Source: Chitinophagaceae bacterium
Lineage (GTDB): Bacteria; Bacteroidota; Bacteroidia; Chitinophagales; Chitinophagaceae
DNA: 64,000 nucleotides
Direction of reading: 5' to 3'
Assembly (NCBI GenBank): GCA_023957155.1
Contig: JAMLHK010000002.1
Span: 124,001-188,000, forward strand
Shown here: piece by piece, positions 1 to 9,960 of the stretch
Layout of the letters: each line of letters starts with the position of its first letter
Numbering within the stretch: the first letter of the stretch is position 1
Made by a program: the position numbers and the translations under genes
The notes under the pieces: model-generated
What the model was told of the DNA's origin: nothing
Database searches by the model: none
The model's input: only the letters and a program-made list of their open reading frames with translations

Positions 1-877
1 AATTCAGGGTTTCCTGAACTTTAGGAGTGGAAGAGGTGGGCTTAACGGCAATGCGGAACACCAGTTCGTTTCCATTGCTTATTCCGCCTACAACACCTCC
101 CGCATGATTAGTACGGGTTTTTCCATCCGGGCCGGTAATAGCATCATTGTGTTCACTGCCAAACATCCGGGTGGCGGCAAAGCCGGTACCGAATTCAATA
201 CCCCGTATGGCCGGTATAGCAAAAACAGCATGGCTGATCAGGGATTCGACTGAATCAAAAAACGGTTCTCCAAGCCCTGTAGGTAACCCGTTTACCCTAC
301 ATTCTACTACGCCGCCGATACTGTCTTTGGCATCAATGGCTTTTTGGAGTCCTTTTTCTATATCCCTTTCTCCCCCGATTTCGAGCAGGGCTGCTGTAAC
401 GGAAATTCCTCCAACGGTGCTGCTATTGGAGTCCGGGAATCTGCGTAATATTTTTTTTGCGATCACACCTGCAGCTACTAAAGCTACGGTAAGGCGCCCG
501 CTGAAATGTCCGCCACCCCGGTAATCCTCAAAGCCGCCAAATTTCTGGTGAGCTACGAAATCTGCGTGTCCGGGGCGGGGAACAGCCCTTTGTTTCTGGT
601 AGTCTCCCGAACGGGTATTGTTGTTTTCAAAGAGGATGGTAAGGGGGGCACCTGTTGTGGTATCATTAAAAATACCGCTTTTAAAAATCGGTAAATCGGA
701 TTCCTGCCGGGGGGTGGTTCCTTTTTGTTTACCGCCTTTTCGCCGTTCAATATCCTCCAGGAAATCATCCACTTTCAAAGGCAAACCGGCCGGGCAGCCG
801 TCAATGCAAATGCCTACGCTCTCGCCATGCGACTCACCGGAAATATGTACACGAAATAGTCTCCCAAAAGAATTCAT
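1..877 (-). CDS. aroC: Chorismate synthase, 3' end cut by window edge
   Basis: Chorismate synthase converts 5-enolpyruvylshikimate-3-phosphate to chorismate, the last common step of aromatic biosynthesis, and needs reduced FMN. The reading frame stays open from the ATG at 877 to the left edge (about 292 codons). It opens with MNSFGRLFRVHISGESHG, matching the conserved N-terminus of the family (GxxFRxxxxGESHG). Later it shows GRPGHADF-like (RPGHAD), the FSGRLT segment and the EFGTGF / GSEHND stretch that lines the active site. The start lies 29 bases downstream of the aroA stop, so it is the last visible gene of the minus-strand aromatic operon. The C-terminus, about 20% of the usual 350-380 residues, is missing only because the window ends. 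Confidence 0.96.
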   Translation of the reverse strand, partial: MNSFGRLFRVHISGESHGESVGICIDGCPAGLPLKVDDFLEDIERRKGGKQKGTTPRQESDLPIFKSGIFNDTTTGAPLTILFENNNTRSGDYQKQRAVPRPGHADFVAHQKFGGFEDYRGGGHFSGRLTVALVAAGVIAKKILRRFPDSNSSTVGGISVTAALLEIGGERDIEKGLQKAIDAKDSIGGVVECRVNGLPTGLGEPFFDSVESLISHAVFAIPAIRGIEFGTGFAATRMFGSEHNDAITGPDGKTRTNHAGGVVGGISNGNELVFRIAVKPTSSTPKVQETLN

Positions 878-906: not shown

Positions 907-2226
907 TTATTGAATTGCTGCAGCCGCTTGTTTAATATTAATGATAGCTCCCAGCTTAATGAGATCAGTATAAAAGTCCGGGTAGGATTTGTTAATGGCA
1001 TCTGCCTCTTCAATAGTAGTCGGTCCTTCGGCACGAAGTGCAGCTACGGCACAGGCCATCGCGATCCGGTGATCGTGGCGGGAATGTACGGTTGCTCCTT
1101 TCAGTCCTTTCCCTCCATGTACGTGCATATCATCCTCCTGCAGATCTACCTGTAATCCCATTTTAGCAAATTCCTCCTGCAGTGTTAATCCCCGGTTGCT
1201 TTCTTTATGCCGCAACCGGCTTACGCCTTTGATGGTGGTTATCCCGCTACAGTATGCAGCTAAAGCCACTAAAGGGGGAAAAAGATCAGGGCAGTCAGTG
1301 GCATCAAAGCTAAAGGCTTTTAATGTTCCGGGAATTATTGCCATGCCATTGTCTGTGATTTCCATCCCTGCGCCGGCATCCCGTAATGCTTCCAGTATCT
1401 TTTTATCAGCCTGTGCAGAATCGGGATCAAGTCCATATACTTCTATCTTACCTGCAATAGCACCGGCTACCAACAGGAATGCTCCGCCGCTCCAGTCCCC
1501 TTCTACCGTATATGAAATTTCAGATGGCGGCAGTGGTGCAGGAGACTGATCAAAGTAAAAGGCTTTATAGTTTTTATTTTCCGGTGTTTTTAATCCGAAC
1601 GCCTGCATGACTTTAAAAGTAAGGTCTATATACGGCCTGCTTTTTAAGTTATTCACCTTTATGGTTACATCACGGGCTTTTGCCGCTGCATAGGCCATGA
1701 GCAACCCGGTTAAGAACTGGGAACTTAATGAGCCGTCAATTTCAATGTTCCGGGGTTGTAGCGGCCCGGAGAGCAGGATAGGCAGTCTGCCATTATTGGA
1801 ACGTATCGTTACATTTAACCCAGGCAGTATGTCATCAAAGAAATCCATAGGACGGGAAAGCAGGCTTCCTTCTCCGCTGATAGAAACCGGCAGCCGGCTT
1901 AAGGCAATAAGGGGGGCAAACATCCGGATACCTAATCCGCTCTCTCCGCAATTTATGGACAGTGCATTATGACCGGTGGCAGGAGAAGACAGGTCGGTAT
2001 TCGTGCTGTCAATTTCTATCGTGCTGTCACTACGGGTAGTTATTTTAGCTCCCAGAGCGGCTATTACTCCCAGGGCGGCTTTATCATCATTAGAGTGCCC
2101 CGGATTGTGAATGGTACTTCTTCCCCGCAATATCAGGGCTGCGGCGCAGGCTCTTTGCATAGCACTTTTAGATGCGGGAGCCTGGATTGTACGGGCGAGT
2201 GTGGATGGTTGAATGGTTGTTATCAT
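907..2226 (-). CDS. aroA: 3-phosphoshikimate 1-carboxyvinyltransferase (EPSP synthase)
   Basis: EPSP synthase joins phosphoenolpyruvate to shikimate-3-phosphate in the cytoplasm. The 439-residue length fits the family. The N-terminal substrate loop appears as APASKSAMQR, a variant of the usual PGSKSxSNR. The second signature is NCGESGLGIRM in place of GNAGTAMR. The C-terminal half has LRHKESNR, which binds the PEP phosphate, and DHRIAMACAV near residue 400. The gene ends 29 bases before aroC and starts 2 bases after aroB, so the three are surely co-transcribed. The variant loops are common in Bacteroidota homologues. I make no claim about inhibitor sensitivity. Confidence 0.96.
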   Translation of the reverse strand: MITTIQPSTLARTIQAPASKSAMQRACAAALILRGRSTIHNPGHSNDDKAALGVIAALGAKITTRSDSTIEIDSTNTDLSSPATGHNALSINCGESGLGIRMFAPLIALSRLPVSISGEGSLLSRPMDFFDDILPGLNVTIRSNNGRLPILLSGPLQPRNIEIDGSLSSQFLTGLLMAYAAAKARDVTIKVNNLKSRPYIDLTFKVMQAFGLKTPENKNYKAFYFDQSPAPLPPSEISYTVEGDWSGGAFLLVAGAIAGKIEVYGLDPDSAQADKKILEALRDAGAGMEITDNGMAIIPGTLKAFSFDATDCPDLFPPLVALAAYCSGITTIKGVSRLRHKESNRGLTLQEEFAKMGLQVDLQEDDMHVHGGKGLKGATVHSRHDHRIAMACAVAALRAEGPTTIEEADAINKSYPDFYTDLIKLGAIINIKQAAAAIQ

Positions 2227-2228
2227 GA

Positions 2229-3248
2229 TTAAAGTGCTTCTATTATTTTTTCCAGCTGAGACAAAGATATGGACTCCATCACCGCCTTACCTGTTTTTTC
2301 CAGTAATACATAATTCATTTCCTTACGTTCTCTTTTCTTATCCATCTTCAGCACTTCCATTACCTTTTTCTTATTAAAAGAAGCATAAGTAGGTAATTCA
2401 TACCGTTCCAATAATTTTACTACCCTGTCGGTATCCTTAAATCCTTTCAGCCGGGCAGATATATGAGCGGCATACGTCATGCCAATGGAGATAGCCTGCC
2501 CGTGAGACAGCTCGTATTGGTTTTCTAATGCGTGTCCAAGGGTATGCCCGAAGTTGAGCAGCCTCCGGTCTCCTTTTTCAAATTCATCTTTCTGAACTAC
2601 TTTTATTTTGATCATCGCATTACGGCGAACCAGGGCATGCAGGACTGCTTTTTTTTGCTGGTACGTTTTAAGCGTAGCGGCCTCCAGTTCTCTGAACATG
2701 GCGGCATCCTTTATACAGGCATGCTTGATGATTTCGGCAAAGCCGTTTACCCATTCATTTTGGGGAAGGCTGCGCAACAGGTTGTAATCGTGGAGAATGA
2801 AGCCGGGCTGCCGGATGGTACCCACCATATTTTTATATACGCCGATGTCAATCCCGTTTTTCCCTCCAATGCTGGCATCTACCATGGCCAGTACGGATGT
2901 GGGTACAAATCCAAAAGGGATACCACGCATATATATTGATGCTACATAACCTGTAATATCTGTAATTACACCTCCTCCAATACCAATAAGCGTGGTTTTT
3001 CGATCGGCAGCAAATGCGATCATTTGTTCAATTACCGAGTCTGCCGTTGCCTGTACTTTAAAGGCTTCCCCGGGTTTTAATACAATGGTATTCCAGTTCC
3101 TGAATGTAGCGGTGTGGCTGCTGAATAAATTTTCATCGGTAATCAGGATCGCTGATTTGGGGTCTGCTATTTTTTTTAGCTGTGAAAAATTATGATCGAA
3201 ATAGAATCGGGTGGAAGTATTGCTGAATTTAAATTGTATTGGATCCAT
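2229..3248 (-). CDS. aroB: 3-dehydroquinate synthase
   Basis: 3-Dehydroquinate synthase cyclises DAHP to 3-dehydroquinate using NAD and a divalent metal. The 339 residues carry the NAD-binding and substrate segment GIGGGVITDITGYVAS, then PTSVLAMVDASIGGKNGID. The metal ligands are visible in EIIKHACI (Glu), and in LNFGHTLGHALE (His residues about 240-250). The gene sits between the HUH transposase (33 bases upstream) and aroA (2 bases downstream). It is slightly shorter than enterobacterial AroB (about 360 residues), which is normal for this phylum. Confidence 0.96.
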   Translation of the reverse strand: MDPIQFKFSNTSTRFYFDHNFSQLKKIADPKSAILITDENLFSSHTATFRNWNTIVLKPGEAFKVQATADSVIEQMIAFAADRKTTLIGIGGGVITDITGYVASIYMRGIPFGFVPTSVLAMVDASIGGKNGIDIGVYKNMVGTIRQPGFILHDYNLLRSLPQNEWVNGFAEIIKHACIKDAAMFRELEAATLKTYQQKKAVLHALVRRNAMIKIKVVQKDEFEKGDRRLLNFGHTLGHALENQYELSHGQAISIGMTYAAHISARLKGFKDTDRVVKLLERYELPTYASFNKKKVMEVLKMDKKRERKEMNYVLLEKTGKAVMESISLSQLEKIIEAL

Positions 3249-3281: not shown

Positions 3282-3722
3282 TCAGCTTTCGCCGATATGT
3301 ATTACCATACGTTCAAAGGCAGCGAGCTCTTCGTCCAGTTTTTTTTCCCGGTGGTAGGATTCCTGCCTGCTGATGTATTCAACCGCTTTGTCAACAGTGG
3401 AAGGGCTCACTGACCAGGCGGAGTAGGTATCCTCCCATGCAAACGGATCTGGTAATAACTTGTTATGGTTAAGCCAGTTTTCCGATTCCTGCTTCAGCTG
3501 ACTGACGATCGCTGAAACGGATTGTGCCGGCATCAGCTTAAACAGGCAGTGAATATGTTCTTCTCCTCCGTTTACCGCAATAGCCTGGATACCTTTTTCT
3601 TCCGCATTTCTTTTCATAAAAGGCAGGAATACTTTTCGTATGATGCCGGTCAGCACGGGCTGTCTTCCGGCAGTACACCATATTGCATGGATGTAGATAA
3701 AAGTGGTATTGCTGCCCTGCAT
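3282..3722 (-). CDS. Lone HUH (Y1/IS200-like, REP-associated type) transposase
   Basis: This 146-residue protein is a Y1-family HUH endonuclease of the IS200/RAYT type. The two metal-binding histidines are in EEHIHCLF (H56 and H58). The likely nucleophilic tyrosine is Y116 in the helix motif VEYISRQ, followed by SYHREK. All catalytic positions are therefore present. The gene lies inside the aromatic operon, 20 bases after the DAHP synthase stop and 33 bases before aroB, on the same strand. I saw no IS ends, target duplication, tnpB or accessory gene beside it. Single-copy relatives in other genomes act on short palindromic repeats. Whether this one is active, domesticated or just recently inserted cannot be told from sequence alone. 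Confidence 0.85.
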   Translation of the reverse strand: MQGSNTTFIYIHAIWCTAGRQPVLTGIIRKVFLPFMKRNAEEKGIQAIAVNGGEEHIHCLFKLMPAQSVSAIVSQLKQESENWLNHNKLLPDPFAWEDTYSAWSVSPSTVDKAVEYISRQESYHREKKLDEELAAFERMVIHIGES

Positions 3723-3742: not shown

Positions 3743-4831
3743 TCAGGCGTTCATTATTTTATTCTGATGGTTGATAGATTCCATGTGAACCGCATCAAAA
3801 TATTTAGTAATAAACTCATTGCTCAACCCGATCTTTTCTCCTTTTTTATAAGCCCTTTCTAAGATTTCGTTCCAGCGGGATGTTTGTAAAATGGTAATAT
3901 TGTTTTCCTTTTTGTATTGCCCTATTTTTTCAGCAAGATGCATGCGCTGACTCAGTATCTGCATCATTTCATCATCAAGGTGATTGATCTGCTGACGTAG
4001 TTTTTCTAATGCCGCGTGAAATTCTTTTGAATCAGCATCTTCCTTTCTCCAGGTAATTGCATCCAGCATCTCCGCCAGTTTTTCAGGTGTTATCTGCTGT
4101 TTGGCATCGCTCCAGGCTTTGTCGGGGTCAATATGGCTTTCTATCATTAGTCCATCGTAGTCAAGGTCTATGGCCTTCTGGGCTACTTCTAAAAGAATAT
4201 CCCTCCTGCCGCAAATATGAGAAGGGTCGTTTATTATTTTCAGTTCGGGATTGCGTCTTTTCATTTCTATAGCCAGGTGCCACATTGGTGCGTTCCTGAA
4301 TTCCGTATTGCCATAAGCGCTGAAGCCGCGATGGATCAGTCCTATTGTTTTGATACCCGCTTTGGCAATACGTTCTACCGCACCTGTCCAGAGCTCAAGG
4401 TCCGGGTTGATCGGGTTTTTGATAAATACCGGAACATCGGCGCCTCTTAATGCATCCGCAACTTCCTGTACGCTGAAAGGGTTAACGGTAGTACGTGCGC
4501 CTATCCATAGCATATCTACTTCAAAATGCAGGGCGTCTTCAGCCTGCTTTCCGGTAGCCACTTCAACCGTAGTCGGTAACCCGGTTAATTTTTTTGCCTG
4601 TTGCAGCCAGGGCAATCCCTTTGTGCCTACTCCTTCAAAGCTTCCCGGGCGGGTACGGGGTTTCCAGATACCTGCGCGAAGCATGTCTACTTTGCCGGTT
4701 TTAGCCAGGCGTTGTGCTGTTTCCAGTACCTGCTCTTCAGTTTCCGCACTGCAAGGTCCTGAAATGATCAATGGCTTTTTGTTGAGCGTATTCAACACTG
4801 TAGCTTTTGTATGGGTTTCCACCGCTTCCAT
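3743..4831 (-). CDS. Bifunctional 3-deoxy-7-phosphoheptulonate synthase / chorismate mutase
   Basis: This fusion does the first step of the shikimate pathway (PEP + erythrose-4-phosphate to DAHP) and the chorismate-to-prephenate branch step. Residues 1 to about 255 form a KDO8P-synthase-like DAHP synthase barrel, with ISGPCSAET, LRAGIWKPRTRPGSFEG, GARTTVNPFSVQE, KNPINPD and DPSHICGRRD. Residues about 268-360 are an AroQ-type helical chorismate mutase, starting LRQQINHLDDEMMQIL and including AEKIGQYKKEN. The order and the 362-residue length match the DAHPS-CM fusion usual in Bacteroidota. It starts 50 bases after the helicase gene. Having the mutase here explains why pheA and tyrA in the same operon lack their own mutase domains. 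In related enzymes the mutase domain also mediates prephenate feedback; that is family knowledge. Confidence 0.95.
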   Translation of the reverse strand: MEAVETHTKATVLNTLNKKPLIISGPCSAETEEQVLETAQRLAKTGKVDMLRAGIWKPRTRPGSFEGVGTKGLPWLQQAKKLTGLPTTVEVATGKQAEDALHFEVDMLWIGARTTVNPFSVQEVADALRGADVPVFIKNPINPDLELWTGAVERIAKAGIKTIGLIHRGFSAYGNTEFRNAPMWHLAIEMKRRNPELKIINDPSHICGRRDILLEVAQKAIDLDYDGLMIESHIDPDKAWSDAKQQITPEKLAEMLDAITWRKEDADSKEFHAALEKLRQQINHLDDEMMQILSQRMHLAEKIGQYKKENNITILQTSRWNEILERAYKKGEKIGLSNEFITKYFDAVHMESINHQNKIMNA

Positions 4832-4881: not shown

Positions 4882-6558
4882 TTATCTTCTCTGGTCGGCT
4901 TCGTTCATTCTCAGACTTCTGCCTTTATATTTTTTACCATCAATAGACCGGATCATTTGTTTGGCCGATTTTTTATCCACTTCAATCCAACTGTTCATCT
5001 CCTTCATGTCTATTTTTCCGAGGACCTCTTTTCTTAGATCACTCATATCTAAAATGAACTGCAGGAAACTGGCTTTGTAAAAGCCGTCTTTCGTGCCCAG
5101 GTTGACAAATAATTTGGTAAAGCCATTGCTTCCGGTTCTTCCAAATTCTCTTCCTTTGGTATCCCGCCAGGTTGTTTCTCTTTTTTCTGTATTTCCTCTG
5201 GTGTTTCTTTCCCGGTATTCGCGTGTTCTTTCTCTTACGTTGAGATCTTCCGCATGTTCATAATATTTTAAGAACCTGCTGAATTCGTGTGCCGCCAGCC
5301 GCCTGAGGATCTCTTCTTTACTTATACTGGCAAACTTTTCTTCCAGCATAGGTATATAGGGCTCATAGCTTTTATCATCAATATCCAATTGCAGCAGACC
5401 ATCCATAAAATGAAAAAACTGTTTGCGGCATACATCCTTGCCGGCAGGGATCTCCAGCTTACGAAAAGGCACCTGTACGATTCTTTCAATTTGCCTGATC
5501 TTACCTATTTCACGGCTATGTATAACCGACATGCATATCCCGGTATTTCCTGCCCGCCCGGTTCGCCCGCTCCGGTGGGTGTAAACCTCCACATCATCGG
5601 GAAGCTCATAATTGATAACGTGGGTAATTCCCTGCACATCAATACCCCTGGCGGCTACGTCCGTAGCTATTAAAAGCTGTAATGTCTTATCCCTGAATGC
5701 ACCCATTACCTTGTCTCTCTGCTGTTGGGTCAGGTCGCCATGCAATGCATCAATATCATAGCCTTCTCTTGTCAGCTTCTCGGCAATATCCTGGGCATCG
5801 GCTTTAGTGCGTGTAAAGATGATGCCATAGATCCCGGGATTGAAATCAATTAACCGCTTCAGCGTTTCATACCGGTGCTGGGCGCTGGTGATATAGTATT
5901 GATGGTCTACGTTTTTACTGGCGGTATTCATTTTTCCCACCGTTATTTCAACGGGCGCCTTCATGTATTTTTTGCTTACCCGCCGTATCTCAGGGGGCAT
6001 GGTAGCGCTAAACAGCCAGGTGCTTTCCCGCTTGGGTGTGTTTTGCAAAATGAATTCTATGTCATCCTGGAAGCCCATATTCAGCATTTCATCCGCTTCG
6101 TCAAGAATAACATATTTAATTTGTTCCAGGTTTATGGCTTTACGTTCAATTAAATCTATCAGCCTGCCCGGAGTGGCAACAACGATCTGTATTCCTTTTT
6201 TGAGCTCCCGGATCTGCGTGCCGATTGAGGCTCCTCCATAGACCGCCACTACGTGCATCCCGGTGATGAATTTTTTAAACAGCTCAATTTCATTTACAAT
6301 TTGCATACACAGCTCCCGGGTTGGGCAAACCACCAAAGCCTGTGGAAATTTATCCTTAGCCTGTATTAACTGGAGTAACGGTAATCCAAATGCGGCTGTT
6401 TTTCCCGTGCCTGTTTGTGCCAATCCTATCAGATCTGTGGTTCCGCCTAACAAAACAGGAATGGCTTTTTCCTGGATAGGCGTTGGTTCTTTAAATCCTA
6501 AGCTATCGGTAGCCTGTATTAATTTCCCTTCTAAACCTAACGCTTCAAATGTCATCAT
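4882..6558 (-). CDS. DEAD-box ATP-dependent RNA helicase with DbpA-type RNA-binding domain
   Basis: A 558-residue DEAD-box RNA helicase that unwinds short RNA duplexes using ATP, probably in ribosome assembly or cold adaptation. Visible motifs: Q motif (PTPIQ, residues 26-30), motif I AQTGTGKT (47-54), Ia PTRELC (about 79-84), Ib TPGR, II DEAD (153-156), III SAT (184-186), and VI HRSGRTGR. The C-terminal 75 residues (from about 480, FTKLFVNLGTKDGFYKASFL) match the DbpA RNA-binding fold. A charged RE-rich linker lies between. A near-perfect -7 box (TATCTTTG at 6586-6579) sits just upstream, and the gap to tyrA is 104 bases, so it probably has its own promoter inside the aromatic operon. The start could be either of the two adjacent ATGs. 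Confidence 0.93.
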   Translation of the reverse strand: MMTFEALGLEGKLIQATDSLGFKEPTPIQEKAIPVLLGGTTDLIGLAQTGTGKTAAFGLPLLQLIQAKDKFPQALVVCPTRELCMQIVNEIELFKKFITGMHVVAVYGGASIGTQIRELKKGIQIVVATPGRLIDLIERKAINLEQIKYVILDEADEMLNMGFQDDIEFILQNTPKRESTWLFSATMPPEIRRVSKKYMKAPVEITVGKMNTASKNVDHQYYITSAQHRYETLKRLIDFNPGIYGIIFTRTKADAQDIAEKLTREGYDIDALHGDLTQQQRDKVMGAFRDKTLQLLIATDVAARGIDVQGITHVINYELPDDVEVYTHRSGRTGRAGNTGICMSVIHSREIGKIRQIERIVQVPFRKLEIPAGKDVCRKQFFHFMDGLLQLDIDDKSYEPYIPMLEEKFASISKEEILRRLAAHEFSRFLKYYEHAEDLNVRERTREYRERNTRGNTEKRETTWRDTKGREFGRTGSNGFTKLFVNLGTKDGFYKASFLQFILDMSDLRKEVLGKIDMKEMNSWIEVDKKSAKQMIRSIDGKKYKGRSLRMNEADQRR

Positions 6559-6662: not shown

Positions 6663-7511
6663 CTATTTGATTATCCGGTTAATTTTATTGGCGTTTTCCA
6701 TCAGTTCCTGTAAGTAGGTATAATTTTCCTTTTCCAGGCAACTTTTAAATTTCCTTAACTGGGTGATGTGCTCATTCAGGACGTCTAATACATGCTCCCG
6801 GTTTTGTTTAAAAATGGGAAGCCACATAGACGGGTTGCTTTTTGCCAGGCGCACGGTACTTTCGAACCCCCCGCCGGCTAATTCGAAAATGGCGTTTTCT
6901 TCCTTTTCTTTTTCCAATACCGTATTGGCCAGTGCAAAAGAAGTGATATGTGAAATATGGCTCACGTAAGCTGCATGTATATCATGTGCTTCGGGATTCA
7001 TATAGGTAACATGCATGCCGAGCATTTTATAAATTGTCTCAACGGTATGCACGGCATCTGCATCACTTTTTTCTTTTTCACAGATCACACAGGTGCGGCC
7101 GGCAAAAGCGTCTGATACTGCAGCTTCCGGCCCGCTGTATTCGGTTCCCCACATCGGATGGGTGGCAACAAAACGGCTGCGCATGGGGTGGTTAGCCACC
7201 GCTTCGCAAAGCGCCTGCTTGGTAGAGCCGGCATCCACTACAATTTGTTTTTCATTTACCAGATCCATGACTTGCAGTACCACCGGTATAGTGGCATCTA
7301 CGGGTATGGCGATATAAATAAGTTCACTTTGCTTTACCGCCTCCTCCAGGGGCAATGACTCGTCAATGATCCCTAACTTAAGCGCTTTATCAATGCTCTG
7401 TGATGTGCGGCTCACCCCGATTACTTTTTTAACCCATCCTTTTTCTTTTAAGATCAGGCTGAATGAACCGCTTATCAAACCAACTCCTACTATCGTAATG
7501 GTATTAAACAT
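6663..7511 (-). CDS. tyrA: Prephenate dehydrogenase
   Basis: Prephenate dehydrogenase oxidatively decarboxylates prephenate to 4-hydroxyphenylpyruvate, the tyrosine branch. The 282-residue protein starts with a Rossmann fold (IVGVGLISGSFSL, GxGxxxG). It carries the substrate/catalytic segment ATHPMWGTEYSGPEAA near residues 118-133, and the helical dimer domain with HDIHAAYVSHISH. There is no chorismate mutase or ACT domain. It ends 104 bases before the helicase, and begins 3 bases after the aminotransferase stop, so the pheA-aminotransferase-tyrA trio is one unit. Confidence 0.95.
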   Translation of the reverse strand: MFNTITIVGVGLISGSFSLILKEKGWVKKVIGVSRTSQSIDKALKLGIIDESLPLEEAVKQSELIYIAIPVDATIPVVLQVMDLVNEKQIVVDAGSTKQALCEAVANHPMRSRFVATHPMWGTEYSGPEAAVSDAFAGRTCVICEKEKSDADAVHTVETIYKMLGMHVTYMNPEAHDIHAAYVSHISHITSFALANTVLEKEKEENAIFELAGGGFESTVRLAKSNPSMWLPIFKQNREHVLDVLNEHITQLRKFKSCLEKENYTYLQELMENANKINRIIK

Positions 7512-7514
7512 GGC

Positions 7515-8702
7515 TTATTCTTTTTCTTTCCGTGATGCTTTTACCCTGTCTATACTTTGCTGTATTTTTTGCTCCGTGCAACAAAGGCTTACTCTTACAT
7601 AATGATTACCTGCACTTCCGAAAATCCCGCCGGGTGTAATAAATACCCTGGCTTCGTCCAGTACTTCATCGCTCAATGCATATCCATCTGCATAGGATGA
7701 CGGGGTTTTAGCCCATACAAACATCCCCGCCTGCTGTTCTGAAAAAGAACATCCCAGCAGTCGCAAAAGTGTGAATACTTTCTCCCTACGGTTTCTGTAA
7801 AGTGTATTGATACCCTCGTACCAGTCTTTTCCGAGGGTAAGCGCTTTTGCGGCTGCTAACTGAAGCGGTAAAAACATGCCGCTGTCCATGTTGCTTTTAA
7901 AGCGCAGCACATCGTCAATTCTTTCTTTGGCTCCACATAGCATACCCACACGCCATCCCGCCATGTTCTGTGACTTGCTTAATGAATTTAATTCTATCGC
8001 TACCTCTTTGGCGCCTGCTATGCTTAAAATACTCTGTGGATGATCGTTTAAAATAAAGCTGTAAGGATTATCGTGAACGATTAAAACCTTATTTCTTTTT
8101 GCAAAGGCTATGAGAGACGAGAAGAACGAAAGACCGGGCAACTGCCCCGTAGGCATGTGCGGGTAATTGACAAATAGTAACCGGACAGCCTGTTTTTTTG
8201 TAGAGCCGCTTATTTGTTTTTCCAGCGCTTCCAGGTCAGGCAGCCAGTTGTTCTTTTCTTCCAGGCTGTACTCCACGAGGTTGCCCCCGGCTAATTGGGC
8301 TACACTCCGGTAGGTAGGATAACCGGGATTGGGAACAAATACATCGTCCCCTTCATTAATATACGTCATGCATATATGCATAATGCCCTCTTTGCTGCCT
8401 ATCAGCGGCAGGATCTCCGTATCGGCATTTAAAGTAGTGTCATACCATGTTTTATACCACGCTGCCATGGCCTGGCGCAATACGGGAGAGCCTTTATAGT
8501 TTTGATAACCATGAACTTCGGGCCTGGCGCTTTCTTCCTGCAGGGTTTTGATTACGTCCGGGTGAGGAGGCATATCCGGACTGCCGATACCCAGGTTAAT
8601 GATTTGCTTACCCTGCCGGTTCAATTCGTCAATGGCTCTCAATTTCTGAGAGAAATAGTATTCACCAATACCTTCTAATCGTTTTGCTGTTGAGATCGTC
8701 AT
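7515..8702 (-). CDS. PLP-dependent class I/II aminotransferase (probably aromatic)
   Basis: A 395-residue fold-type I aminotransferase. The Schiff-base lysine is in SLSKSQNMAGWRVG. Cofactor-ring and phosphate contacts appear as VPNPGYPTY, and NYPHMPTG replaces the usual NPTG. The sequence belongs to the broad aspartate / LL-diaminopimelate-aminotransferase-like group. Placement between pheA (20 bases upstream) and tyrA (3 bases downstream) suggests that it transaminates phenylpyruvate and 4-hydroxyphenylpyruvate as the last step to Phe and Tyr. That specificity is inferred from context. LL-DAP or alanine/aspartate aminotransferase activity cannot be excluded. Confidence 0.9.
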   Translation of the reverse strand: MTISTAKRLEGIGEYYFSQKLRAIDELNRQGKQIINLGIGSPDMPPHPDVIKTLQEESARPEVHGYQNYKGSPVLRQAMAAWYKTWYDTTLNADTEILPLIGSKEGIMHICMTYINEGDDVFVPNPGYPTYRSVAQLAGGNLVEYSLEEKNNWLPDLEALEKQISGSTKKQAVRLLFVNYPHMPTGQLPGLSFFSSLIAFAKRNKVLIVHDNPYSFILNDHPQSILSIAGAKEVAIELNSLSKSQNMAGWRVGMLCGAKERIDDVLRFKSNMDSGMFLPLQLAAAKALTLGKDWYEGINTLYRNRREKVFTLLRLLGCSFSEQQAGMFVWAKTPSSYADGYALSDEVLDEARVFITPGGIFGSAGNHYVRVSLCCTEQKIQQSIDRVKASRKEKE

Positions 8703-8722: not shown

Positions 8723-9655
8723 TTATGAATAGTGTTTTCCTTTACGGTACACGCCATAGATCTTTAAATCTTCAGTAAGCGCTCTCATGTCTTTTATTAC
8801 CTGGTAAAATTGATGCAGGGTGTCAAACTCCATGTCGGCATGAAAAGAATATCTAAAGTCGGATCCGGGTATGGGAGAACTTTGCAATTTACTGAGGTTT
8901 ATTCCTCCCTCAGCAATAGTAGTCAGTACCTTAGCCAGGCTGCCTCTTGAGTGATCGGTATGAAAATTAACCGATGCTTTGTTGGCGTTTTCAATTACCT
9001 CCGCCAGGTCTTCATGCTGCAATATGAGAAAGCGGGTATAATTATTGGATAAGGTATGTATATCGGGGGCCAGTACGTTCAGGTTATACAGGTCGGCAGC
9101 CAGTGTACCGGCAATAGCGGCGATATGTTTACTTTTATGCTGGGCAATATGTTTTGCACTTAGCGCCGTATCCTCTGTTTCAACCAGTTTCCAGTTAAAT
9201 TGTTCGAGGTATTTGAGGCATTGCTGGATGGCCATCGGATGCGAATGGACTTCCTTTATATCTCCGGGCTGTACGCCGGGGTTAGCTAATAAATTTTGCC
9301 TGATCTGCAGGTAGATTTCACCAACAACTTTAAGCTTACTTTTTTGTAAGAGGTTATAATTGGGCAAGATACTTCCGGCAATAGAATTCTCAATAGCCAT
9401 TATACCTCCATCACTTTCTTTTTTGTCAGATGCTTTTTTAACTACTTCGCTAAAGGTGGAACAACAAATCACCCGGGTTTGTTTGCCATAAAAATGTTGT
9501 GCAGCCATTTGGTGAAAGCTTCCTTCATATCCCTGTATGGCTACAGCAACAGCCGTTCCATTTCGTGGCCCGCTTTGTTTTTCCGTTTCGGGGGAGAGGG
9601 TATTATCCGGGTAAGCCTGGTCTTTTATCTCCGATGTATTTCCTGTACTACTCAT
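8723..9655 (-). CDS. pheA: Prephenate dehydratase
   Basis: Prephenate dehydratase converts prephenate to phenylpyruvate. After a polar N-terminal stretch of about 35 residues, the catalytic domain runs from VAIQGYEGSFHQMAAQHF to about residue 215. It includes AIENSIAGSI and the catalytic-threonine motif NNYTRFLIL. Residues about 228-305 form an ACT regulatory domain (LAKVLTTIAEGGINLSKLQSSPIPG), which in this family binds Phe for feedback control. No chorismate mutase is fused; that activity is supplied by the DAHPS-CM gene downstream. It is the first enzyme gene of the operon. Its start lies 35 bases after the attenuator terminator, so its transcription depends on the leader region at 9690-9864. 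Confidence 0.96.
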   Translation of the reverse strand: MSSTGNTSEIKDQAYPDNTLSPETEKQSGPRNGTAVAVAIQGYEGSFHQMAAQHFYGKQTRVICCSTFSEVVKKASDKKESDGGIMAIENSIAGSILPNYNLLQKSKLKVVGEIYLQIRQNLLANPGVQPGDIKEVHSHPMAIQQCLKYLEQFNWKLVETEDTALSAKHIAQHKSKHIAAIAGTLAADLYNLNVLAPDIHTLSNNYTRFLILQHEDLAEVIENANKASVNFHTDHSRGSLAKVLTTIAEGGINLSKLQSSPIPGSDFRYSFHADMEFDTLHQFYQVIKDMRALTEDLKIYGVYRKGKHYS

Positions 9656-9689
9656 GTGATATTTATATAATATCGTTTAAAAAAGTCAT

Positions 9690-9715
9690 AAAAAAATCCC
9701 GGTGTTAAACCGGGA
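9690..9715 (-). terminator. Attenuator terminator hairpin before pheA
   Basis: On the minus strand TCCCGGT pairs with ACCGGGA (7 perfect base pairs, 5-base loop) and is followed at once by a run of seven Ts. This is an intrinsic terminator located between the leader peptide stop and pheA. Its 5' arm is the same sequence that pairs with the leader in the antiterminator, so the two structures exclude each other. Confidence 0.88.
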
Positions 9716-9772
9716 CTGTTTATGTTGAACTTTTTATGTTTTAGTTGTTTTTCAACAAAAGCAATCCCGGTC
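9708..9772 (-). promoter_or_regulatory. Antiterminator of the Phe/Tyr attenuator
   Basis: In the transcript, GACCGGGAUUG (9772-9762, inside the leader ORF) can pair with CAGUCCCGGUU (9718-9708): 11 consecutive pairs including two G-U. Nested inside, UGUUGAA (9757-9751) pairs with UUCAACA (9729-9723), 7 pairs. Together they make a long stem that sequesters the 5' arm of the terminator. Immediately upstream, CCGG-UAGA-CCGG can form a small protector hairpin covering part of the antiterminator strand. A ribosome stalled on the Phe/Tyr codons would leave 9772-9762 free and favour read-through. Confidence 0.82.
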
Positions 9773-9827
9773 TACCGGTAAAGTAGAAATAAAAATAAAA
9801 GAAACCGTATGCCTTTGTTGTGTTCAT
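9741..9827 (-). CDS. Phe/Tyr-rich leader peptide (28 residues)
   Basis: A 28-codon ORF with ATG at 9827 and TAA at 9743-9741. Residues 9-16 read FFYFYFYF, with one more Tyr at position 7, giving five Phe and four Tyr in ten codons and no Trp. It precedes pheA and is followed by overlapping antiterminator and terminator hairpins. By analogy with classical amino-acid leader peptides, its translation would sense charged tRNA-Phe and tRNA-Tyr and set transcription of the whole aromatic operon. It is too short for routine gene callers. A -33/-7 promoter ends a few bases before the ATG, so the peptide mRNA may be almost leaderless. Confidence 0.88.
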   Translation of the reverse strand: MNTTKAYGFFYFYFYFTGRPGLLLLKNN

Positions 9828-9834
9828 TGTGAAG

Positions 9835-9864
9835 CAAATGTAAGACTAAAAATAAAAAAACAAA
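9835..9864 (-). promoter_or_regulatory. Promoter of the aromatic amino-acid operon
   Basis: On the minus strand TTTG (9864-9861), an 18-base T-rich spacer and TACATTTG (9842-9835) closely match the Bacteroidota -33/-7 pattern TTTG-N19-21-TAnnTTTG. The expected transcription start falls only 2-4 bases before the leader-peptide ATG. Confidence 0.7.
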
Positions 9865-9890
9865 TATTTAGGTTCTATTTTTTTTCAAGA

Positions 9891-9919
9891 AAAAAATGCC
9901 ACCCCTTAACAGGAGTGGC
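9891..9919 (-). terminator. Intrinsic terminator of the small lipoprotein gene
   Basis: On the minus strand GCCACTCC and GGGGTGGC form an 8-pair stem (one G-T) around a 6-base loop, followed by a T run. It lies about 40 bases after the lipoprotein stop, and separates that gene from the pheA operon promoter. Confidence 0.8.
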
Positions 9920-9960
9920 CTCAACGATTGCTTGCCATATAAAAAAAAACTTCTGTCTGC

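Follow-up and report, generated by a model that had tools for sequence, protein, structure and literature searches.

A probable ribosome-mediated Phe/Tyr attenuator ahead of the aromatic operon of Chitinophagaceae

The pheA gene of Escherichia coli is controlled by attenuation in response to charged tRNA-Phe (PMC11802643). Its leader resembles the one described here in the target gene and in a phenylalanine leader peptide, whereas the present leader mixes Phe and Tyr codons, has an AUG apparently located at the RNA 5' end and heads a whole aromatic operon. The leader peptide aroR of Corynebacterium glutamicum, with the residues Phe-Tyr-Phe, also precedes an aromatic operon, but it belongs to another phylum, has aroF as the first gene and is reported to respond to Phe and not to Tyr (PMC11802643); in our case the run extends over eight codons. 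Leaders that begin at or near their AUG have precedents in other phyla: the leader RNA of Sinorhizobium meliloti trpL starts at the leader AUG (PMC7298713), and C. glutamicum ilvBNC is treated as leaderless, its first hairpin being said to block initiation and to leave the terminator intact (PMC11857589).

Leader-peptide attenuators are also described for Actinobacteria and, by prediction, for Firmicutes (PMC2965389), and the attenuator-like element Bacteroid-trp (RF01692) is known from Bacteroidetes (PMC2864571, PMC6414381). In Flavobacterium psychrophilum and other Flavobacteriaceae, structured 5' elements lie upstream of pheA and hisG, and clues for leader-peptide attenuation were reported upstream of amino-acid operons (PMC9723704). 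Going by the accessible parts of these sources, the premise of an earlier sequence-only reading of our locus, namely that such leaders are described mainly from Proteobacteria, is outdated. The flavobacterial pheA element shares with ours the phylum, the gene, its transcription and the lack of an Rfam hit; it differs in that the accessible part of the paper makes no mention of Phe/Tyr codons, of a leaderless spacing or of a pairing segment within the first codons (PMC9723704). Membership in Bacteroid-trp was rejected, with no match at the gathering threshold in the analysed DNA and none in the genome. That element belongs to the Trp operon; here, the trpE of the genome has a leader with a Trp run despite the missing RF01692 match. 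No paper on a Phe/Tyr leader peptide of Bacteroidota was found in the open-licence literature searched, in which PMC9723704, as far as its accessible text goes, names the pheA 5' element. A structured element ahead of pheA is therefore already in print for Flavobacteriaceae; within the literature searched, a class-wide Phe/Tyr leader with covariation, its near-leaderless spacing and the use of its first codons as a pairing segment are apparently new.

The locus lies in a stretch of 64,000 nucleotides, hereafter the window, from a Chitinophagaceae genome of 4.6 Mb that is 88% complete. The closest pheA records are metagenome-assembled genomes with 85 and 84% identity, and the closest named strain is Agriterribacter humi with 81%, in line with a place in this family. 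Promoter, leader ORF, antiterminator and intrinsic terminator follow one another on the minus strand from 9864 to 9690, and pheA begins 34 nt after the terminator. The promoter reads TTTG-N18-TACATTTG; its -33 element TTTG (9861..9864) was read from the sequence, and the -7 element TACATTTG (9835..9842), of the Bacteroidota sigma-A type, was assigned by the published box position (PMC9723704) and by conserved spacing. Seven nucleotides separate TACATTTG from the ATG of the leader peptide ORF MNTTKAYGFFYFYFYFTGRPGLLLLKNN (9741..9827, 28 codons), whose residues 9-16, FFYFYFYF, are the putative regulatory codons (9780..9803). Segment 2, the 5' arm of the antiterminator (TAGACCGGGATTG, 9762..9774), pairs with segment 3 (9706..9718), the antiterminator 3' arm that is common to the 5' arm of the terminator. 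A nested stem of 7 bp, UGUUGAA/UUCAACA, extends the antiterminator (5' arm TGTTGAA, 9751..9757; 3' arm TTCAACA, 9723..9729). The intrinsic terminator (9690..9717; stem 9717-9709 / 9703-9695, T run to 9690) consists of the hairpin AGTCCCGGT-TTAAC-ACCGGGATT at 9717-9695 and seven T at 9696-9690. The leader with its flanks folds at -46.8 kcal/mol (z -4.75), better than 200 of 200 dinucleotide shuffles.

These parts agree with the sequence-only reading, which had placed the 28-codon ORF with its FFYFYFYF run, the promoter, the T-run terminator and the nested 7-bp stem where they are found. Its antiterminator likewise uses the 5' arm of the terminator, but it had been given 11 bp, whereas 9774-9762 and 9718-9706 form 13 consecutive pairs, G-U counted. 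A small ORF resembling a lipoprotein gene lies further upstream in the same orientation, from 10191 to about 9964. It has its own terminator-like hairpin at 9919-9898, hence the leader terminator is not needed for this ORF.

The conservation of the leader was followed in regions upstream of pheA. Of 147 family genomes, 103 yielded this gene; 52 of 198 class genomes did so too, including three family members. A collection that includes named records added 80 family loci, kept out of 282. In all, 183 family regions (the 103 genomes plus these 80 loci) and 49 regions from the rest of the class were scanned for an ATG-initiated ORF with at least six Phe or Tyr in eight residues within 450 nt upstream of pheA. 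After removal of regions sharing a 60-mer with an earlier one, which reduced the sets from 183 to 139 and from 49 to 48, such an ORF preceded pheA in 130 of the 139 distinct Chitinophagaceae regions and in 25 of the 48 others. Before this strict removal, in counts that still included genomes present in both collections, the run was found in 170 of 179 family regions and in 26 of 47 other-class regions (two regions, shorter than 100 nt or with non-ACGT letters, were omitted). Dinucleotide shuffles yielded means of 0.2 of the 179 and 0.1 of the 47, and the reverse strand gave a run in one family region and in no other-class region. Among 11 control residue pairs, nine hit 0-7 family regions, and the Phe-sharing pairs LF and FI hit 28 and 22. 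The Phe/Tyr run is not due to chance. Nine of the 139 family regions fell below the cut, two of which (L062, with a GTG start, and L090) do carry a leader; below the cut were also 23 of the 48 other-class regions, three of them scoring 5 (e.g. L118-L120, L130, L139 and L141 among the 23).

Order and number of the codons vary between relatives (FFYFYFYF, FYFYYFFF, FFYFFFYF). Beyond the run, the RNA is read in different frames by different lineages (..TGRPGLLLL, ..SSRVVFA, ..GAGVFC-stop), and therefore RNA, and not peptide, is conserved there. A short upstream ORF of biased composition ahead of a terminator would suit an arrest peptide as well, whose nascent chain stalls the ribosome on a free amino acid or another molecule instead of on uncharged tRNA. 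Arrest peptides usually require fixed residues; with Phe/Tyr content kept in varied order and number and the following residues changing frame by lineage, this explanation appears improbable.

The structural part of the leader is conserved as well. A terminator of set quality was present in 136 of 153 family leaders (122 of 135 after stricter duplicate removal), 17 being without one by the rule used, and in 23 of 26 other-class leaders; the same rule accepted 3 of 765 mononucleotide-shuffled regions. Measured from the ATG, the terminator starts at 110 nt (median; quartiles 107 and 113, range 80-148). In an alignment of 50 leaders, hand-picked for variety among the 136 with a terminator found, 94.4% of the terminator cells were paired, a fraction raised by this choice, and seven of eight pairs had changed on both sides (0 of 500 shuffles). 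The antiterminator had 76.9% of its cells paired and 13 of 16 pairs changed on both sides (0-1 of 500 shuffles). Sliding the partner by one column reduced the paired cells to 61-63% for the terminator and to 48-49% for the antiterminator. For the antiterminator, a slide of +1 column retained 12 of 16 doubly changed pairs, with 36 doubly changed cells compared with 45, so that this measure is weak here; the paired fraction and the covariation score, 0.205 against 0.090 after the slide, are the better measures. An all-versus-all column scan of 114 sequences, to which no structure was given, returned the columns of both terminator and antiterminator, along with some pairs fitting neither helix.

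Segment 3 lacks TCCCGG in 23 of the 136 leaders. In these 23, the native segment 2 regions pair with a total of -391.5 kcal/mol compared with -281.1 ± 12.9 for foreign ones, and none of 2000 random foreign sets matched the native total; a poor fit of segment 2 was seen in three (L172, L191 and L206). Taken over the full set of 136, the native region was equalled in pairing by a median of 24% of foreign segment 2 regions. Covariation gave no support to a local hairpin CTTC:GAAG that immediately precedes segment 2, and this candidate was discarded. The sequence-only reading had proposed ribosome-mediated Phe/Tyr attenuation and had named conservation in related Chitinophagaceae as its check; on this point it held, with leader ORF and stems conserved and covarying across the family. 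Features expected of an attenuator were thus found together, namely a run of end-product codons in a short leader ORF, an intrinsic terminator between this ORF and pheA, and an antiterminator that excludes the terminator by engaging its 5' arm.

The distances between these parts suit a moving ribosome. Counted from the A of the ATG, the medians place the run at 24-48, segment 2 at 59-68 and the end of the stop codon at 87; the terminator follows 24 nt past the stop, with the end at about 136. From the end of the run to segment 2 there are 11 nt, approximately the distance between the A site of a ribosome and its front edge, and the stop codon is placed such that a terminating ribosome would hide segment 2. 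When the window RNA was folded with a masked ribosome on each of the eight Phe/Tyr codons, the antiterminator reached 0.99-1.00, and with the ribosome at the stop codon the terminator reached 1.00. Folding and segment 1 tests in the family covered 134 of the 136 leaders, two with late runs (L113 and L219) being left out. With a mid-run ribosome, segment 3 was paired upstream before segment 4 existed in 133 of 134 leaders, and with the ribosome at the stop in 0 of 134; an alternative measure gave 132 and 1. Shuffling of the segment 2 region left segment 3 paired upstream in 90 of 402 cases. The other-class leaders with a terminator behaved alike (23 of 23 mid-run, 0 of 23 at the stop). By folding, a stalled ribosome thus frees segment 2 and a ribosome at the stop covers it.

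Equilibrium folds of the full-length RNA gave a different picture. With the ribosome on the first, middle or last codon of the run, the antiterminator exceeded 0.5 in 35, 49 and 40 of the 134 leaders; most relatives form the terminator in preference to the antiterminator even when a ribosome is stalled, and a kinetic choice of structure must therefore be assumed for them. Ribosome-free folds favoured the terminator in 122 of 134 relatives and gave 0.37 for the terminator and 0.63 for the antiterminator in the window. That the terminator wins at equilibrium in most relatives regardless of the ribosome would fit a fixed leader that senses nothing, in which the terminator sets a constant low level of expression and the ORF only aids ribosome loading or coupling. 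Such a leader leaves unexplained the Phe/Tyr run, an antiterminator that tracks the changes in segment 3 and the conserved spacing, and is very improbable.

The Rfam scan of the window returned no family at threshold. The best match below it was Phe_leader (RF01859; 30.6 bits, E 0.0024; gathering threshold 55), which aligned over the full length of the model (1-125 of 125) at 9820-9688. A T-box or riboswitch that binds tRNA or an amino acid directly, of the kind that controls aromatic genes in Firmicutes, has a negligible probability, as none occurs among 32 permissive matches at 9600-9950 and a translated leader accounts for the parts. Judged by the sequence comparison, the best explanation of the locus is with high probability ribosome-mediated attenuation of transcription in response to charged tRNA-Phe and tRNA-Tyr.

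Which strand would protect the terminator when no ribosome is present was read differently by us than before. The sequence-only reading had assigned this role to the small hairpin CCGG-TAGA-CCGG. The hairpin is present (9767..9778), but as a general protector it fails, only 10 of the 136 leaders carrying CCGG-UAGA-CCGG in a lineage-specific manner. In the best fold, segment 1 (CAACAAAGGCA, 9810..9820), which falls within the initial codons of the leader ORF, is base-paired to segment 2' (TGCTTTTGTTG, 9753..9763); the latter lies downstream of segment 2 and shares positions with the 5' arm of the nested stem. Many relatives have CAAAAGCAT (residues KAY) opposite ATGCTTTTG, another group has GCAAATACA (residues ANT) opposite TGTATTTGC, and single cases include CAACAAAGAG:CTCTTTGTTG, AACAAGACG:CGTCTTGTT and CAAAGCAC:GTGCTTTG; in some leaders the best pairing sits elsewhere. 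A count of this pairing on an alignment of 44 leaders, chosen for variety from the 136 with a terminator, was dropped, as its register moves by six columns between lineages. Support was therefore taken from a permutation test, in which the duplex of the segment 1 and 2' regions had a mean of -16.2, whereas permuted partners gave -13.4 ± 0.24 (0 of 5000; n=134), kinship being ignored. On these grounds the start of the leader ORF appears to be the better-supported protecting strand.

Shine-Dalgarno sequences are missing in Bacteroidota, where few transcripts have a short 5'UTR or none (PMC7366714, PMC9723704): 5'UTRs below 10 nt amount to about 3.7% in Bacteroides thetaiotaomicron (PMC7366714), and 5.5% are leaderless in F. 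psychrophilum (PMC9723704). The -7 box of the latter organism, TAnnTTTG, occupies positions -12 to -5 (PMC9723704), and so the 5'UTR is taken as the gap between box and AUG minus 4. For the window this predicts a transcription start near 9830, 3 nt ahead of the ATG. The spacing was determined in 89 of the first 90 distinct leaders, L062 with its GTG start being left out. TTTG or TTG at a spacing of 17-21 was present in 73 of the 89, and the gap measured 4-10 in 86 and 1, 15 and 17 in the remaining three; the leader with gap 1 (L095) has an in-frame upstream ATG, its main ATG being at 7. Over all 153 family leaders, a perfect box occurred within 45 nt in 133, with a gap of 4-10 in 117, farther in 16 and below 4 in none; tolerating one mismatch, 132 of the 153 had a box at 4-10. 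Removal of duplicates left 114 distinct family leaders that have a perfect box; the gap measured 4-10 in 100 of them and was never below 4. By comparison, the 41 long ORFs of the window include 10 with a box no more than 45 nt away, one of these at 4-10.

These gaps imply a 5'UTR of 0-6 nt for the family leaders, and the sharp edge at gap 4 would be the point at which the AUG itself starts the RNA. The suspicion of the sequence-only reading that the leader is translated almost leaderless agrees with this family-wide spacing, the start being placed by the distance from the -7 box. Among other-class leaders, a perfect box was found in 14 of 26 at gaps of 15-35 and in none at 4-10. Allowing one mismatch adds a box at 7-8 for three of them, L124 and L127, which share another family, and L144; the short spacing may thus not be restricted to Chitinophagaceae, and the three are possibly independent short 5'UTRs.

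Leaders for other amino acids occur in the same genome on contig C20, where a His leader MNYRTHHHHHFLPIG lies upstream of hisG (L241) and a Trp leader MMKNNTNKYWWWHTNSRWGL upstream of trpE (L258), with about 12.5 kb between hisG and trpE. Same-genus genomes carry the His leader in 11 of 12 cases and the Trp leader in all 12. A perfect box stands at 18-23 in each of the 11 genus His leaders; a twelfth His leader, of another family, has none. An imperfect box (GAnnTTTG or TATTTGTG) is located at 5-10 in all 11 Trp leaders counted of the 12 genus Trp loci. A scan upstream of ilvD at 23 loci yielded one clear leader (L276) and one possible leader (L284), both Ile/Val leader candidates: the ORF MGTIRRYNFVDAVIIIVVVIIIPAMHGGGICM of the former lies 314 nt and the ORF MNNKQLSVILSIIISVVNIY of the latter 244 nt upstream of the ilvD match.

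For the attenuator sensing charged tRNA-Phe and tRNA-Tyr, we infer the following course of events. RNA polymerase would start about 0-6 nt ahead of the leader AUG, so that a ribosome could load immediately on the 5' end. If Phe and Tyr suffice, the ribosome would reach the stop codon and hide segments 2 and 2'; segment 3 would then pair with segment 4, and transcription would stop ahead of pheA. With Phe-tRNA or Tyr-tRNA in short supply, it would stall in FFYFYFYF with its front edge at about the start of segment 2, leaving segment 2 and the nested stem to pair with segment 3 and the stretch preceding it. Once this antiterminator has formed, the terminator would come too late, and pheA, the aminotransferase, tyrA and probably the later aromatic genes would be transcribed. 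In the absence of a ribosome, the pairing of segment 1 with segment 2' would be expected to shift the balance to the terminator, and it may block the start site as well.

The genes under this presumed control are all encoded on the minus strand. The prephenate dehydratase gene pheA (8723..9655, PF00800) is followed by a class I/II aminotransferase gene (7515..8702, PF00155) and the prephenate dehydrogenase gene tyrA (6663..7511, NF006307 above cut-off). A DEAD-box RNA helicase with a DbpA domain comes next (4882..6558), likely with its own promoter TATCTTTG, 20 nt before the start. It is followed by a DAHP synthase/chorismate mutase fusion (3743..4831, PF00793 and PF01817), the 3-dehydroquinate synthase gene aroB (2229..3248, TIGR01357), the EPSP synthase gene aroA (907..2226, TIGR01356) and the chorismate synthase gene aroC (2..877, named by eye), which extends beyond the window. 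An IS200-like (Y1) transposase gene (3282..3722, PF01797) lies within the operon between the DAHP synthase gene and aroB, also in four further genomes (G028, G123, G085 and G114), as a lone gene kept in the operon. In another locus (L305, G141), the aroC match falls into two pieces about 450 nt apart, perhaps by an insertion.

The order pheA, aminotransferase, tyrA, DAHP synthase/chorismate mutase, aroB, aroA and aroC was found in 16 of 16 family genomes fetched; in four class genomes outside the family, only parts of it were found. The helicase lies inside the operon in 9 of 16 relatives, and in two others its matches end just upstream of pheA; a perfect -7 box stands 17-23 nt before its start in 8 of 12 matches, a count that takes in the window and the two partial matches upstream. 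For the other genes, a perfect -7 box no more than 80 nt from the start was found in 0 of 17 cases each for the aminotransferase, tyrA, DAHP synthase and aroB genes, in 2 of 17 for aroA, one being the window aroA with its -7-like box 35 nt upstream, and in 1 of 17 each for aroC and pheA. With no -7 box before the aminotransferase or tyrA, the genes from pheA to tyrA should depend on the attenuator. The later genes may have a second supply, given the likely helicase promoter and the -7-like box of the window aroA. The proposal that control might reach as far as aroC fits the conserved gene order, but in view of the likely helicase promoter and the aroA box these genes may also be served otherwise.

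The finding extends a textbook switch, by comparison, across a class of Bacteroidota for which the literature, as far as its accessible parts go, only hints at it, and it describes an element below every Rfam threshold in the window and predicts control of the aromatic operon. It also shows how an attenuator is built in cells without Shine-Dalgarno sequences, and its apparent near-leaderless start, of a kind rare in the phylum, makes it a natural test bed for initiation by these ribosomes. More tentatively, the Chitinophagaceae leader might be truly leaderless, with a 5'UTR of 0-6 nt and the guard strand of the antiterminator being the ribosome landing site itself, which we consider possible though somewhat doubtful. 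If true, a similarly short 5'UTR would be expected for the genus Trp leader, where 5-10 nt separate the AUG from the imperfect box, and not for the His leader at 18-23. The pairing of segment 1 with segment 2' would then both protect the terminator and close the leader to further ribosomes, and the sensor would have two gates, one at initiation and one at the Phe/Tyr run.
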